Source: Collimonas fungivorans Ter331 (GTDB lineage Bacteria > Pseudomonadota > Gammaproteobacteria > Burkholderiales > Burkholderiaceae_D). From it: a stretch of DNA of 64,000 nt. The stretch covers positions 3,864,542 to 3,928,541 of the forward strand of contig NC_015856.1 of NCBI RefSeq assembly GCF_000221045.1. The letters are read 5' to 3'. This document shows, in pieces, positions 1 through 5,390 of this stretch. A program made the translations under genes and the position numbers. The notes beneath the pieces are model-generated. The model saw nothing but the letters and a program-made list of their open reading frames with translations, was not told the DNA's origin and did not search any database. Positions within the stretch are counted from its first letter, which is position 1. Each line of letters opens with the position of its first letter.

Positions 1-1
1 A

Positions 2-385
2 TACGACCAGCGCATCGCTGTCCTCGACGGCGTCACGCCGGTCCCGGAAGGCGCCGGCGTACGTTCGAATTACCATAAATATGTTGTGCTGCTCGATGCC
101 GGCTGCGACAGGGCGATGCTGCGCTCCATGATGCAGGAAACGGCTGGCATCCAGCTTGGAACCGGCGTCTACGATGTGCCGCTGCATCTGCAGCCGGTTT
201 TTTCGGGCATGGACAATACCGGCCTGCAGGTAGCGGAAGACGTTTGCGCCCGCCACGTCTGCCTGCCGATTCATTCCGACATGACATTTGCGGACGCCGA
301 CCGCGTCATTACCGCGCTGGCCGCCTGCCTGGCCCGCTTGCGCAAAACCGCGGCGCCGCTTGTCCACGAAGGCGATCTGCAATGA
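2..385 (+). CDS. DegT/DnrJ/EryC1 aminotransferase, C-terminal part
   Basis: The reading frame is open from the left edge, so only about the last 127 residues are present. Visible motifs are PLHLQPVF and, near the end, LPIHSDMTFADADRVITAL, which match the C-terminal part of DegT/DnrJ/EryC1/StrS sugar aminotransferases. These are PLP enzymes that usually transfer an amino group from glutamate to a keto-sugar. The PLP lysine lies outside the window. The gene is followed at 31 bases by a Mur ligase and then by three more genes on the same strand. The family call rests on the C-terminal motifs alone, and the substrate is unknown. Confidence 0.8.
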   Translation, partial: YDQRIAVLDGVTPVPEGAGVRSNYHKYVVLLDAGCDRAMLRSMMQETAGIQLGTGVYDVPLHLQPVFSGMDNTGLQVAEDVCARHVCLPIHSDMTFADADRVITALAACLARLRKTAAPLVHEGDLQ

Positions 386-415
386 AAACGCAGGCTTCCC
401 ACACCGCAGCGCGCC

Positions 416-1666
416 ATGGATAGGCATGCTGCGCTGCCTCGCATGCGCCCTCCTGCGCCGCCCCTATGGAGCGATTGCCTGCTGACGGTCGGCGTCACCG
501 GGACCAACGGCAAGACTTCGACTACCGGCATGGTGGCAAACGCGCTTGGCTGCCTGCAACAGCCGGTGGCTCGCATCACCAGCATCGGCGCCTATGTCGG
601 CAGCGAGCACATGAACGTGCCGCGCAGCTACGCCGGCCTGGTCGAGACGATGCGCGCGGTCTTGCAGCGTGGCGGCCATTACGCCGCGCTTGAGCTGGCC
701 AGCTGGTCGTTGGCCCAGGGTTTCATGCAAGCGTGGCCGTGCCAGGTTGGCGTCTTTACCAACCTTACCCCCGAACATATGGATATCCACGGCTCGATGG
801 AAAACTACCTGGCCGCCAAGACCCAGCTGTTCATCAACCTGCCGGAAGCGGGGATCGCCGTGCTCAATGGCTGCGACCCGGCGTCAGAAGTTATCGCAGC
901 CGTCACGCCGCCTGGAACGCGGATCATTTATTACGGTACGGCGTCGCGCGGCCGGCCGCGGCACGCGCTGGACATTATCGCGGACGAGGTTGCCGTGAGC
1001 TGGACCGGCACCCGCCTGCGCTTGTCGGCAGCAGCCGGCCTCGGTGCAGTGCCGGTGAAACTGACGCTGCGGGCGATTGGTGAAATTTACGCGGAAAATG
1101 CGCTAGCCGCACTGGCTGCAGCCATCGGCGCTGGTGTCCCGGCGCAGCAGGCGGCCGATGCCATTGCGGCAACCGCGCCGCCGCCGGGCCGCTTTGAAAT
1201 ACTCGGGCAATCACCATGGATCGTGCTGGACTATGCCCACACGCCCGATGCCATCTGCCGTACGCTTTCCACGGCGCGCCAGTTGAGCCACGGCTGCATC
1301 TCGATCGTCTTCGGCGCCGGCGGCGACCGCGACCGGCCCAAGCGGAAGCTGATGGGACAGGCGGCAATGGCGGCCGACCGCGTGTTCCTTACCAGCGACA
1401 ATCCGCGCAACGAAGATCCGCTGGCCATCATCGAAGATATCCGGCTTGGACTGCAAGGACATCGGGACATCAGTGTCAATCCCGATCGCAGGCAGGCCAT
1501 CATCGCAGCGCTTGCAGCGGCCTCGGGCGACGATGTCGTCATCCTCGCCGGCCGCGGCCCGGAGACGCACCAATGCGTACGGGCGGCCTGGCACCCCATG
1601 TGCGACGCCGATATCGTCCGGGAGATCATCGGCGGCGAACCGGTGGTTCACGAAGGATGGACATGA
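416..1666 (+). CDS. Mur ligase family protein, MurE-like, lacking the N-terminal UDP-sugar domain
   Basis: The protein has 416 residues. An ATP-binding loop, GVTGTNGKTST, starts near residue 27. It is followed by NLTPEHMDIHGSMENYLAAK (central domain), LDYAHTPDA, FGAGGDRDRPKR and the C-terminal TSDNPRNEDP and LAGRGPETHQ. This is the Mur ligase order of an ATPase domain followed by a ligase domain. MurE is about 490 residues and starts with a UDP-MurNAc-binding domain of roughly 95 residues, which is absent here. DNPR is the motif linked to meso-diaminopimelate recognition in MurE. The start is the first ATG after the upstream stop, and an ATG near 443 is an alternative. The gene overlaps the next one by 4 bases. 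It probably joins an amino acid to a non-UDP acceptor, which is an inference. Confidence 0.82.
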   Translation: MDRHAALPRMRPPAPPLWSDCLLTVGVTGTNGKTSTTGMVANALGCLQQPVARITSIGAYVGSEHMNVPRSYAGLVETMRAVLQRGGHYAALELASWSLAQGFMQAWPCQVGVFTNLTPEHMDIHGSMENYLAAKTQLFINLPEAGIAVLNGCDPASEVIAAVTPPGTRIIYYGTASRGRPRHALDIIADEVAVSWTGTRLRLSAAAGLGAVPVKLTLRAIGEIYAENALAALAAAIGAGVPAQQAADAIAATAPPPGRFEILGQSPWIVLDYAHTPDAICRTLSTARQLSHGCISIVFGAGGDRDRPKRKLMGQAAMAADRVFLTSDNPRNEDPLAIIEDIRLGLQGHRDISVNPDRRQAIIAALAAASGDDVVILAGRGPETHQCVRAAWHPMCDADIVREIIGGEPVVHEGWT

Positions 1667-2385
1667 CGGCTCCCAAAAAAATACTGCTGGTCAACGGCTG
1701 CAGCCACACCGCGGGATCGGAAATCGATACGCTTGGCGTGGCGCCGCACGGGTATTCGCCGGAAAAGGCATTCGGCGCCCATCTTGCCAATGCAATGGGT
1801 TGCGACGATTACGTCAACATTGCAATGCCCGGGGGTTCCAACGAACGGATCACGCGCACCACGATCGACTGGATAGGCAAATACCATAAGCCCGCGGACC
1901 AGCTGTTCGTGGTGATCATGTGGACCGGCCGCGACCGCTTCGAACTTTACGACGACCGCAACCGGATCTGGCTCAGCCTGTGTCCGGGCGTAGAACGCTC
2001 CAGGTGGTTCGCCGACTTCACTTATGCGGTCCAGCAATACTTCAAGTTCCACATGCTGGTGCGCACCAGCGATGTCCAGACTTACTCGCGGCTCTGGGCC
2101 GAAGTCATCATGATGCAGAGCTACCTGAAGATCAACCACATCAACTACATGTTCTGCAACGCCTACCAGGGCCTTCCCGAAACCCTGGACTATGCCGGCT
2201 TCCGCAGCCAGGTCGATCTTGCCGCCTACTACCAGCCATTCGAAGACAGCACCGGTTTTGTGCAGATCCTGACGCAGCAGGGATTCAAGACGCGCGCCGG
2301 CGACAACGTGCATTTTGGCGAAGACGGGCATCGTTATTGGGCCGGCGTCTTGCACGCCTTTATTCAAGACAGGAGACTGGCATGA
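1663..2385 (+). CDS. SGNH/GDSL hydrolase-like protein
   Basis: The protein has 240 residues and no signal peptide. An N-terminal strand leads into NGCSHTAGSE, where the serine would be the nucleophile. PGGSNERI gives the glycine block, and DNVHFGEDGH near the C-terminus supplies a D-x-x-H pair. These fit an SGNH-fold hydrolase or transferase acting in the cytoplasm. The ATG at 1663 is preferred over that at 1657 because GAAGGA sits 5 bases upstream. The start overlaps the Mur ligase stop (ATGA), and the stop overlaps the next start in the same way, so the genes are probably translationally coupled. The fold is reasonably clear, the activity is not. Confidence 0.7.
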   Translation: MTAPKKILLVNGCSHTAGSEIDTLGVAPHGYSPEKAFGAHLANAMGCDDYVNIAMPGGSNERITRTTIDWIGKYHKPADQLFVVIMWTGRDRFELYDDRNRIWLSLCPGVERSRWFADFTYAVQQYFKFHMLVRTSDVQTYSRLWAEVIMMQSYLKINHINYMFCNAYQGLPETLDYAGFRSQVDLAAYYQPFEDSTGFVQILTQQGFKTRAGDNVHFGEDGHRYWAGVLHAFIQDRRLA

Positions 2386-2486
2386 TCAACTATCTCAAGC
2401 AGCTGCTGCAGCGCTGGAGCACCGCGCGCGCGTACAAGAAAAAAATGCGCGCCATCAGGAAACGCGATCCCTATATTTACAAATAA
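2382..2486 (+). CDS. 34-residue basic protein, translationally coupled
   Basis: The start codon overlaps the stop of the SGNH gene (ATGA), and the stop lies 11 bases before the carbamoyltransferase. The product has a hydrophobic start (MINYLKQLLQ) followed by a strongly basic stretch (RAYKKKMRAIRKRD) and ends DPYIYK. It could be a peripheral membrane or scaffold peptide for its neighbours, but no family is recognised. The tight packing between two genes is the main reason to call it real. Confidence 0.6.
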   Translation: MINYLKQLLQRWSTARAYKKKMRAIRKRDPYIYK

Positions 2487-2497
2487 CGGCCGCCGCC

Positions 2498-4045
2498 ATG
2501 ATTTCCTGGGGCATCTCTGCCCGCAGCCATGACGCGGCATTGGCGGTATTCGCCGACGGAACGCTGGTGTTTGCAGGGCATGCGGAACGCTATTCAAAAA
2601 TCAAGAACGACAGCGAACTTGCTCCCGGCCTGGTTGCGGACGCGCTCGCCTATGGCGAACCGGGACAGATCGTCTGGTACGAGCGCCCCTGGCTGAAAAA
2701 AACCAGGCAGATGCTGGCAGGACAATGGCAGGAAATCCGGAAGACCGAAAACATCGCTCGCTACCTGTCCAGATACCTGACCTCTCGCCCCATTTCATTC
2801 ACCGGCCATCACCTGAGCCACGCGGCGGCAGGATATTACACATCGCCTTTCCGCGATGCGACGATCATTGTGCTGGACGCCATCGGCGAATGGCAAACCT
2901 ATACCATCTGGGAAGCCACGGGAACCCAGCTCAAGCTCCGCTTCAGCCAGCGCTACCCGCATTCGGTCGGCCTCTGGTACTCCGCCATGACCCAGCGCTG
3001 CGGCTTCAAGCCGAACGAAGAAGAGTACATCCTGATGGGCCTGTCGGCCTTCGGCGATCCGCTGAAATATTACGACAGGATCAAGGCCGATTTTTTTGTG
3101 TGGCAGCAGGGCCACCCGTCGATTCGGCTGCGCCATAACCTGCATCGCGGCTGCAGATGGTGGGCGCCGGAGGTGACGGATGTGGAAAACATCGCCGCCG
3201 CGACCCAAAGGATCTATGAGGACATCCTGCTGCACGCATCGCGCTTTGCATGCAAGACCCTGCCGAGCAGGAACCTGGTGCTGATGGGCGGCTGCGCCCT
3301 CAACTGCGTAGCCAACCGGCGCCTGGCGGACAGCGGCGACTGGGGTGACATATGGGTGATGCCCTGTCCCGGCGATGCCGGCAGCAGCATCGGCTGTGTG
3401 CTGGCGACCATGCAGGAATTCGTGCACTGGCCCGGACCGTTTCTCGGGCACAGGATCGACGGCGCCTATCCCGTCGCACCGGCCTTGCGGCGCCTGACGG
3501 CCGGCGAAGTGGTCGGCATCGCCAACGGCCGGGCCGAGTTCGGCCCGCGTGCGCTGGGCAACCGCAGCCTGCTGGCTGATCCACGGATTGCCGACAGCCA
3601 GTCGAAGGTCAACGCCATCAAGCAGCGGGAGCGCTTCAGGCCGTTCGCGCCCGCCATCATCGTTGAAATGGCCACAGATTATTTCGACATGGGTGTGCCG
3701 TCCAGCCCCTACATGCAATTTACCGCCAGGTGCAGGCAGCCTGAACAGTTTCCAGGCATTGTCCACGTCGACGGCACCTCGCGCGTGCAGACCGTGACGG
3801 CCACGGACAATCCCGGATTCTACGCATTGCTGCGGGAATTCCACCACGCCACGGGCTGTCCCATGCTGCTCAATACCAGCCTGAATGTGAAAGGTGAACC
3901 GCTCGTCAACGATAGGCACGATGCTGCGCGCTTTGCCATTACCTATGGCGTGCCGGTGTTCTGCGATGGAACAGAAGAAAAGCCGGGGCCGCCGGTAACG
4001 GCAACCCGGTCGGACCCGACTCTTCTCTTTTCATACAACCCCTAA
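2498..4045 (+). CDS. NodU/CmcH/TobZ-type carbamoyltransferase
   Basis: The protein has 515 residues. The N-terminal Kae1/ASKHA-like domain begins WGISARSHDAALAVF and has the metal-binding signature GHHLSHAAAGYYTSPF. The C-terminal domain carries EFGPRALGNRSLLADPR and NTSLNVKGEPLVN, both characteristic of O-carbamoyltransferases such as TobZ, NodU and CmcH. These use carbamoyl phosphate and ATP to make a carbamoyl adenylate and then transfer the carbamoyl group to a hydroxyl. The start chosen is the ATG 11 bases after the small gene, because the motif-bearing domain begins there; no strong ribosome binding site is seen, so coupling to upstream translation is likely. It is the last gene of the cluster. 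The acceptor is unknown. Confidence 0.9.
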   Translation: MISWGISARSHDAALAVFADGTLVFAGHAERYSKIKNDSELAPGLVADALAYGEPGQIVWYERPWLKKTRQMLAGQWQEIRKTENIARYLSRYLTSRPISFTGHHLSHAAAGYYTSPFRDATIIVLDAIGEWQTYTIWEATGTQLKLRFSQRYPHSVGLWYSAMTQRCGFKPNEEEYILMGLSAFGDPLKYYDRIKADFFVWQQGHPSIRLRHNLHRGCRWWAPEVTDVENIAAATQRIYEDILLHASRFACKTLPSRNLVLMGGCALNCVANRRLADSGDWGDIWVMPCPGDAGSSIGCVLATMQEFVHWPGPFLGHRIDGAYPVAPALRRLTAGEVVGIANGRAEFGPRALGNRSLLADPRIADSQSKVNAIKQRERFRPFAPAIIVEMATDYFDMGVPSSPYMQFTARCRQPEQFPGIVHVDGTSRVQTVTATDNPGFYALLREFHHATGCPMLLNTSLNVKGEPLVNDRHDAARFAITYGVPVFCDGTEEKPGPPVTATRSDPTLLFSYNP

Positions 4046-4067
4046 GACCGCGCCAGGATCGCCGGCG

Positions 4068-5390
4068 TTACTGCCCTGCCTTGTAAAAAGCCGTCACCGC
4101 ATCGGCCAGCAGCTTGTGCGTATGCGTGGTCGGATGCAGCGTGTCCCAGAACACAAAACTGTCCGGATTGCTGCACTGTGATCGCGCGCTCTGCGTGCTC
4201 AGGTAGTTGGTGCTGGAATCGGTGTTGATGTTCAGGCAGGACTGGGTGGTATTGCTGACCTGGTATTTGGCCGGGTTGCTCAGCAGGTCGTTGAACAGCG
4301 CATAGCTGTCGAACAGGCGGATATGCAAACTTGAGCCGTATTGCGTCTGCAAGGAGGCGACCAGCGCCGCCAGCCGCGTGTTCAGGTCAACCACCTGCGC
4401 CGCAACAGCCGGGCCGTTGGTCTTGATGGTAAACACAGGCGCCTTGGATACATCGGGCAGCTTGAGCAGCAGGATATTCCTGGCGCCGGCCTGGATCAGG
4501 TTTTGCAAGGCCTGACTCTGGCCGCTGATCACCTGGTCGACCGTGCTGTTGTAGTTGACCAGGTCGTTGCCGCCTATGAGCATGGTAAACAAGGTGTTTT
4601 GCGGCTGGTAATTCTGCGCCTTCTGCATGTACTCGGTGTACGACTGCACTTGCTGGATCACGCCCGGAATCACCAGGTTCTGGGTGCTCACGCCGGCGCC
4701 GCCGATAGCCCAGTTGTACAAGGGAAGCTGCAGATTGTCGGCCAGGTATTCGACCCAGTTCTTGCCGTTGCTGAAGCGGCCCAGGAACCAGCTGCCGGAA
4801 TTGGGCAGCTTCCATTGCGAGGCGTTGTAGACGTTCTGGGTATCGGACAAGCTGTCGCCGAACGCGACGATCTTGTTGATGCCGCCCTGGACCACGCTGT
4901 CGTTGGTCCACACGGTGTAGTTGAACGACAGCGCATTGTCGGCGGCCGCCACCATCGCCACCGGCTGGCTGATGCCTTTGGCGCTTAGCGTACTTTGGCA
5001 TACCGATTGCAGCGTGTTCTGCGTGACATCGCTGTAGAACATGTTTTCCCAATTGAGCAGGCCGCCGGCCCACCAGTAGCCGTTGATGCGGTAATAATCG
5101 CCGCTGGACGGATCGAGCCCCCAGACGTAGGTGGTGGTCGGCTTGGTCGGGTTGCTGCCGGTGCGGTACCAGCAGCGCAAATAAGTGTAGGTGCTGGTGC
5201 TGGCCGCCGCGGTCGCAGCCATGCTGCGCGCGGCAGGCTTTTGCGCCTGCTGCTTCAGCAACTGCTCTTTGGAGAGCGGGCCGGACGACGATAGCCGGTG
5301 GGTATAAGCAGGATCGGGTTTTGCATCGGATTGGACTTCTGCCACGGCTAGATTCGAACACAAAGCACAAAGTAAAAACAGAGTTTTCAT
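4068..5390 (-). CDS. Secreted GDSL esterase/phospholipase, thermolabile haemolysin type
   Basis: The protein has 440 residues. The start is the ATG followed by a signal peptide (MKTLFLLCALCSNLAVAEV); the frame is open further upstream, but that extension would bury the signal. Residues about 65-150 form an N-terminal domain rich in Tyr and Trp. The SGNH domain begins at IVAFGDSLSDTQN with the nucleophile near Ser180. SWFLGRFSNGKNWVEYLA, LPLYNWAIGGAG and IGGNDL follow, and WDTLHPTTHTH gives the catalytic Asp and His at the C-terminus. The order and the RFSNGKNW and YNWAIGG blocks match Vibrio thermolabile haemolysin (TLH/VvPlpA) and related phospholipases. It converges on the carbamoyltransferase with a 22-base gap and no clear terminator. 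Confidence 0.88.
   Translation of the reverse strand: MKTLFLLCALCSNLAVAEVQSDAKPDPAYTHRLSSSGPLSKEQLLKQQAQKPAARSMAATAAASTSTYTYLRCWYRTGSNPTKPTTTYVWGLDPSSGDYYRINGYWWAGGLLNWENMFYSDVTQNTLQSVCQSTLSAKGISQPVAMVAAADNALSFNYTVWTNDSVVQGGINKIVAFGDSLSDTQNVYNASQWKLPNSGSWFLGRFSNGKNWVEYLADNLQLPLYNWAIGGAGVSTQNLVIPGVIQQVQSYTEYMQKAQNYQPQNTLFTMLIGGNDLVNYNSTVDQVISGQSQALQNLIQAGARNILLLKLPDVSKAPVFTIKTNGPAVAAQVVDLNTRLAALVASLQTQYGSSLHIRLFDSYALFNDLLSNPAKYQVSNTTQSCLNINTDSSTNYLSTQSARSQCSNPDSFVFWDTLHPTTHTHKLLADAVTAFYKAGQ

Follow-up and report, generated by a model that had tools for sequence, protein, structure and literature searches.

A short peptide with a nearly fixed C-terminal end accompanies a carbamoyltransferase subfamily and an SGNH-fold protein in Collimonas, other bacteria and viruses, and is possibly a docking subunit

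Carbamoyltransferases of the NodU/TobZ type finish antibiotics, among them novobiocin, geldanamycin and tobramycin. NovN, GdmN and TobZ form carbamoyl-adenylate and pass the carbamoyl group to a small product; the adenylate is made by the C-terminal domain of TobZ, and the HHxxHA motif of the Kae1-like domain binds metal. For the relatives carried by phages we know of no agreed role. Here we describe a gene cluster from Collimonas fungivorans Ter331, whose genome is one contig of 5,186,898 bases. It lies at the left end of the 64,000-nucleotide stretch analysed (NC_015856.1, positions 3,864,542 to 3,928,541; hereafter the window). In this cluster a carbamoyltransferase (CarbT) follows a gene for a 34-residue peptide and a gene for an SGNH-fold protein of family DUF6071. 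Judged from gene content and neighbourhood, these three are shown to make up a conserved module in several bacterial lineages and many viruses. The features of the cluster are as follows.

2..385, + strand: DegT/DnrJ-type sugar aminotransferase, C-terminal part (PF01041, 4e-12 for this part)
416..1666, + strand: MurE-like amino-acid ligase without the N-terminal UDP-MurNAc-binding domain (PF08245, 2.6e-38; PF02875, 6.9e-28)
1663..2385, + strand: SGNH-fold protein, family DUF6071 (PF19547, 1.3e-22; model of family member L032)
2382..2486, + strand: 34-residue peptide with the end RKRDPYIYK (intact in genome G804 and contig L034; family in viral and bacterial CarbT loci)
2498..4045, + strand: carbamoyltransferase CarbT of the NodU/TobZ superfamily, distinct subfamily (PF02543, 1.4e-44; PF16861, 1.8e-55; PHROG 1601, 7e-97; tree)
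1..4078, no strand: right-hand part of an acquired island of about 10.3 kb (flank comparison in four other Collimonas genomes)

The original prediction, made from the letters alone, had read positions 2-4045 as a same-strand run of five genes for an aminotransferase, a reduced Mur ligase, an SGNH protein, a 34-residue peptide and a carbamoyltransferase. Open reading frame (ORF) coordinates and domain searches confirmed the run and these identities, the SGNH fold through the model of a relative. In order, the genes are separated by 30 nt, a 4-nt overlap, a second 4-nt overlap and 11 nt. The same genes are present in a second Collimonas genome (G804) at 92-93% DNA identity with every frame open, and in a metagenome-assembled contig of C. 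fungivorans (L034), where the SGNH protein matches at 99%. Between the window genome and G804 the ratio of nonsynonymous to synonymous substitution (dN/dS) is 0.134 for the Mur ligase, 0.057 for the SGNH protein and 0.126 for CarbT; for the peptide it is 0.163, a value resting on 34 codons. In CarbT both Carbam_trans_N and Carbam_trans_C score above their cut-offs, the metal-binding motif reads GHHLSHAA, and the best solved relatives are NovN (9s2t), GdmN (7vyj) and TobZ (3ven). Both domains and the motif are thus common to CarbT and the O-carbamoyltransferases NodU, TobZ, NovN and GdmN, but CarbT belongs to a distinct subfamily, which a long branch with full support sets apart. From the domains we infer that CarbT transfers a carbamoyl group.

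The association of the peptide with CarbT was examined in viral loci. IMG/VR was scanned with a CarbT alignment, and the best 80 loci were taken from a larger number. A same-strand ORF with the peptide end was present in 61 of these 80. The same count on the opposite strand gave 1 of 80, and four altered words gave 2, 0, 3 and 1 of 80; a chance ORF is rejected by these controls. The distance from the peptide stop to a CarbT start downstream of it is at most 1 kb in 52 of the 61 loci, 39 of which have the stop within -100 to +20 of that start. Such close spacing, found in 39 of the best 80 loci, would also suit a regulatory leader, a short ORF whose translation couples or tunes CarbT expression. 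We consider this very improbable, given that the conservation resides in the amino acids of the end, that some genomes carry the end on another protein, and that in 9 of the 61 loci the ORF stands more than 1 kb upstream or only downstream.

A second scan, blind to CarbT, was carried out with the pattern K[R]DPFIYK followed by a stop; 80 loci were taken from a larger number, and in them the conservation of KRDPFIYK is by construction. CarbT, whole or in part, was found in 71 of these 80 loci and on the same strand in all 71; in 54 of them the CarbT frame begins within -100 to +20 of the peptide stop, and in 17 it begins 137-2005 bases behind. Among the nine loci without CarbT, five (L138, L139, L154, L162 and L186) have a DUF6071-like SGNH gene adjacent to the peptide or close by, and three of the remaining four (L140, L166, L183 and L184) have less than 1 kb of sequence behind it. 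Locus L162 holds several DUF6071-like SGNH genes together with the peptide, and no CarbT was found in it. The two viral sets share contigs, and 127 of the 159 loci were left once copies were removed. DUF6071-like genes (E up to 1e-3) occur in 40 of these 127 unique loci.

In bacteria the SGNH protein and CarbT occur together. A single-protein query for DUF6071 found only the window's own genome among 300 genomes of the order. With the Pfam model, 3 of 398 genomes of the phylum were found (the window's own, G317 and G328), and exactly the same three carry CarbT at E <= 1e-60. DUF6071 matches 6 of 72,556 plasmid records; the same six carry CarbT at 51-52% identity, the next-best plasmid CarbT being at 36.5%. 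Two of the six records are from Mesorhizobium and four from Streptomyces, and they therefore represent perhaps two lineages. In four plasmids that were fetched the DUF6071 gene adjoins CarbT, standing before it in Mesorhizobium and after it in Streptomyces. The co-occurrence that proved wide is thus that of SGNH protein, peptide and CarbT, a trio that the original prediction had not expected. In G328 (L032:10029-16013) and G317 (L033:3648-9605) an ORF of about 2000 residues, resembling an iterative polyketide synthase by eye, stands directly before DUF6071 and CarbT.

DUF6071 is the sole Pfam match of the window's SGNH protein. A model of family member L032, which is 29% identical to the window protein, has a mean pLDDT (predicted local distance difference test) of 81. 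Of its PDB matches, the 50 listed belong wholly or almost wholly to the GDSL/SGNH-type esterases, including TesA of E. coli and PatB of N. gonorrhoeae; the best E is 9.6e-6, and the TM-scores, taken by query length, are modest at 0.34-0.47. An SGNH fold is supported by the model of this relative. Residues G21, S23, G27, N73, H229 and H235 are invariant across 19 aligned DUF6071 members, the window protein included.

The peptide family consists of short basic peptides that end in DP[FY]IY plus one residue and accompany one distinct CarbT subfamily. The peptide is a free ORF before CarbT in Streptomyces (end RRTDPFMYK) and also stands free in a marine virus contig (RKSDPYIYEE). In the Mesorhizobium locus L039 the end is the C-terminus of DUF6071 itself (RRRDPFIYE), the DUF6071 frame of the Mesorhizobium locus L035 stopping earlier, and in G328 and G317 it is likewise fused at the DUF6071 C-terminus (KADPFIYP in L032 and RVKPFIYP in L033). 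A profile of 117 rows was assembled from both viral sets and six others (Collimonas, Streptomyces, one marine virus, and three fused tails cut by hand), with the search word D or K, P, then F/Y/W/L, I/M/V/L/T, and Y/F. In the pooled rows, partly fixed by this selection, D is found in 116, P in 117, F in 113 and Y in the other 4, I in 115, and the last Y in 117; the final residue is K in 97 of the 117. Median length is 37 residues, the range following the chosen cut-offs. Hydrophobic or aromatic residues recur each 3-4 positions, then come a basic stretch and the end; in a model of locus L046 residues 2-29 are helical. The DNA word for the peptide end occurs once in the window's own genome.

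The peptide partner appears new, the carbamoyltransferase and SGNH kinds being already known. The window peptide has no match in Pfam, NCBIfam, PHROGs or PADLOC, and four other members gave just weak, short matches in PHROGs and Pfam. Searches by tblastn against phages gave no match for the 34-residue peptide and three weak E. coli phage matches (E 3) for a viral member, a short lysine-rich query being a poor test. In the open-access literature no paper was found on the peptide or its terminal words, on DUF6071, on Collimonas fungivorans with a carbamoyltransferase, or on any combination of four or more of the subjects carbamoyltransferase, phage, small peptide, SGNH protein and auxiliary metabolism. 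By titles and the starts of abstracts, nothing in the broader open-access literature was taken to concern the peptide module, and the main text of the Collimonas genome paper (PMC4690342) is without 'carbamoyl' or 'Mur ligase'.

A tree of 93 CarbTs was made by a quick method with midpoint root and contains long branches. It includes 79 of the best 80 viral loci, L086 being dropped for an interrupted frame. In it 85 rows, including all 65 labelled as peptide-bearing, are split from the 8 others by a long branch with SH-aLRT (approximate likelihood-ratio test) support of 100. Mesorhizobium, G317 and Streptomyces stand at the base of the 85, with the peptide, and Collimonas inside. Because the peptide is found across the subfamily including its basal branches, its link with CarbT is probably as old as the subfamily, with losses. 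The more distant CarbT loci differ: an end of the DP[FY]IY type is absent in all nine examined (L037 and L244-L251, which include cyanophage Nol, a Pelagibacter phage, NodU-like and other loci), as it is at the CarbT locus of G444. Relatives of the NodU/TobZ type appear in 144 phage records, the majority of them from phages of marine cyanobacteria. Of 93 viral relatives with at least 440 residues, 90 carry HHxxH with A or C as the next residue. Twelve viral loci have a CarbT made up solely of the N-terminal Kae1-like domain; it retains HHxxH and continues to stand behind the peptide:

L127, L131, L135, L137, L141, L145, L149, L156, L179, L190, L196, L203: N-terminal-domain-only CarbT loci

Together with three loci cut by contig ends these make 15 short-CarbT loci, of which 13 have a primase-like gene nearby and 12 a DnaB-like helicase.

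Two readings fit these observations, the peptide as a docking subunit of a carbamoylation module or as an acceptor or carrier. We place the docking subunit first, tentatively and at somewhat less than an even chance. On this model CarbT would make carbamoyl-adenylate and move the carbamoyl group onto a small, probably sugar-like product. The peptide, as an amphipathic basic helix with a free and nearly fixed C-terminal DP[FY]IY, would bind the Kae1-like N-terminal domain of CarbT and link the enzyme to the SGNH protein, whose role would be acyl-group editing on that same product. The end would be borne by the SGNH protein itself in some lineages and by a separate gene in others. The N-terminal domain is the likely partner because the 12 viral CarbTs with only that domain keep the peptide, and docking is favoured because the fusions to the SGNH protein leave the end free. 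The DUF6071 model shows a helix of low confidence and, after it, an end without structure, as expected of a linear docking motif. As a working model only, the C-terminal docking tail of SSB, the single-stranded DNA-binding protein, is comparable, being a short fixed C-terminal end on a flexible tail; its sequence and setting are unrelated.

Several observations speak against the docking reading. The strict motif is missing in 19 of the best 80 CarbT-selected loci. Five of these have a looser ending on a short basic ORF at the same place (RRYIY in L104 and L112, RKYIY in L118, DRFTY in L119, KDYIY in L120), and 14 were scored as none, L065 among them, where a short ORF at the same place ends in RRNKIYD. 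The peptide stands 1-2.9 kb upstream of CarbT in 6 of the 61 loci and only downstream in 3 (L053, L064 and L078). Phage C48C1 lies inside the subfamily, on a long branch, without the peptide. The SGNH gene is seen in only the 40 of 127 viral loci given above, though many loci are cut off at their ends. When peptide, spacer and CarbT of L046 were modelled by AlphaFold as a single chain, with few paired rows and judged without coordinates, CarbT reached a pLDDT of about 95 and the peptide end about 50; confident docking of the end is not supported by this model.

The other reading, that the peptide is the acceptor or carrier, is possible and less probable. CarbT would carbamoylate it, most simply on the near-terminal Tyr, and other enzymes would build on it in the manner of a ribosomally synthesized and post-translationally modified peptide (RiPP) or scaffold peptide; in Collimonas the MurE-like ligase would build on its C-terminus, Mur ligases being enzymes that extend free carboxylates. 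A Tyr is present in 117 of 117 collected peptides no more than two residues from the end, where the selection allowed Tyr or Phe at a fixed position, and the five looser endings outside that selection also end in Tyr. A short ORF adjoins a group-transfer enzyme, so that a precursor gene beside a modifying enzyme, the mark of RiPP and scaffold-peptide systems, is found in the peptide-CarbT loci. Mycofactocin, PQQ, pearlin and microcin C type systems likewise have a short gene-encoded peptide with a conserved end and adjoining modifying enzymes, which is a likeness of layout. They differ from the present case, where a carbamoyltransferase is the partner and the end is in some genomes part of an enzyme. 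Against this reading, three genomes have the end as the tail of a protein of about 295 residues, and neither a dedicated peptidase nor an exporter was recognised among the island proteins, one ORF being of no known family. Also, the 12 viral CarbTs mentioned above have the peptide and lack the C-terminal domain, and in Mesorhizobium the surrounding genes look like those of a C-nucleoside pathway, which does not yield a peptide. A wider proposal is doubtful. In it the gene-encoded peptide is carbamoylated on its near-terminal Tyr and serves as the carrier, which would make this a new class of peptide-scaffold chemistry; it would be ancestral to one CarbT subfamily, widespread in viruses of the environment and also present in bacterial biosynthetic islands.

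The Mesorhizobium locus L039 contains genes of TruD-like, EPSP-synthase-type, radical SAM, 2OG (2-oxoglutarate) oxygenase and aminotransferase kinds, as well as DUF6071 with the end, and CarbT. The malayamycin A report assigns the carbamoyl group to MalD and describes the enzyme types that these genes represent (PMC8724604). The Collimonas island differs in that none of the malayamycin nucleoside genes was recognised in it. A malayamycin-like C-nucleoside gene set is present on the Mesorhizobium plasmids at L039:6121-15458 and L035, the EPSP-synthase-type gene of L039 being in two pieces. If MalD belongs to this CarbT subfamily, the module gains a known product class. The peptide end serves as a sequence tag for related gene clusters, including the malayamycin-like one. 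If the whole subfamily acts together with a tiny partner peptide, enzyme work without the peptide may overlook function, and the peptide would be a precise handle, by removal or an altered end, on what viruses carbamoylate.

The Mur ligase of the cluster (416 residues) consists of Mur_ligase_M and Mur_ligase_C only. No Pfam match to an N-terminal Mur domain was found, and the murE model TIGR01085 aligns only from model position 85; since the UDP-MurNAc-binding part is absent, the protein is not filed as MurE. It shares with MurE ligases the middle and C-terminal domains, the ATP loop (GTNGKTS) and the DNPR motif typical of ligases for diaminopimelate (DNPRNEDP), and its best solved relative is a MurE (4bub). 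It differs from them by the missing domain, its length and its place within a sugar-type island. In the docking model this ligase, having lost the UDP-MurNAc domain, would no longer serve peptidoglycan and might attach an amino acid to the product. In the 127 unique viral loci the island genes with relatives are just CarbT, SGNH and, by 4 hits, DegT; the Mur ligase has none there. No Mur ligase is annotated in the four fetched plasmid regions, whose gene tables are incomplete, and none was noticed by eye in the G317 and G328 stretches.

The original prediction had held that a carbamoylated, aminoacylated surface glycan or secreted metabolite would be consistent with the gene set, and that rare co-occurrence of the genes elsewhere would speak against it. 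Read as a pathway, this would have aminotransferase, Mur ligase, SGNH protein and CarbT acting one after another on a glycan or metabolite, with the peptide incidental. The identities given to the genes hold, and so does the idea of a sugar-tailoring cluster, WbsX-type, formyltransferase, DegT and StrG-like genes being found upstream; the pairing of Mur ligase and carbamoyltransferase across genomes does not, the ligase being seen beside this CarbT in Collimonas only, so that the rarity was largely what was found. The sugar-type genes and the single operon-like run kept in G804 favour such a pathway. As an account in which the peptide is incidental we regard it as improbable, since it is the peptide that recurs with CarbT and the Mur ligase is not seen with CarbT outside Collimonas.

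Extension to the left, which had been proposed as a check, revealed no nameable capsule or antibiotic cluster. From left to right the genes upstream of the window are a WbsX N-terminal half, an ORF of 185 residues, the WbsX C-terminal half, a second WbsX N-terminal half, a StrG-like 2OG oxygenase, the second WbsX C-terminal half, a formyltransferase and DegT. The whole DegT gene (about L004:17767-18927; PF01041, 1.8e-102) begins left of the window; the closest NCBIfam model of its product is PseC, under that model's cut-off. The StrG-like oxygenase matches the NCBI 'sporadic carbohydrate cluster' oxygenase model, also under cut-off. The docking model would leave the building of the product to the WbsX-type, formyltransferase, aminotransferase and StrG-like enzymes.

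The flanks of this run (left of L004 about 12,313 and right of window about 4,078) lie 0.24-0.54 kb apart in 4 of 4 Collimonas genomes read (G825, G763, G858 and G847); the right flank was matched in 14 of 15 genomes of the genus, and the sites were read in these four. Since the flanks nearly adjoin there, the run of about 10.3 kb is an island. Its G+C content is host-like (60.9% versus 60.0 and 60.7). None of the 10 island proteins given to PADLOC matched a model, and a known anti-phage defence system was rejected on this account. G804 has the entire run, about 93% identical; each of the 12 island ORFs that were compared is open in either genome, and their dN/dS ranges over 0.02-0.32. At L004:12922-16931 the two adjacent WbsX-family genes are both broken at about the same place into N-terminal and C-terminal ORFs. 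The genes inside the split pairs, the 185-residue ORF without a known family and the StrG-like oxygenase, are unrelated to them, and the split frames and inserted genes are all open and conserved in G804.

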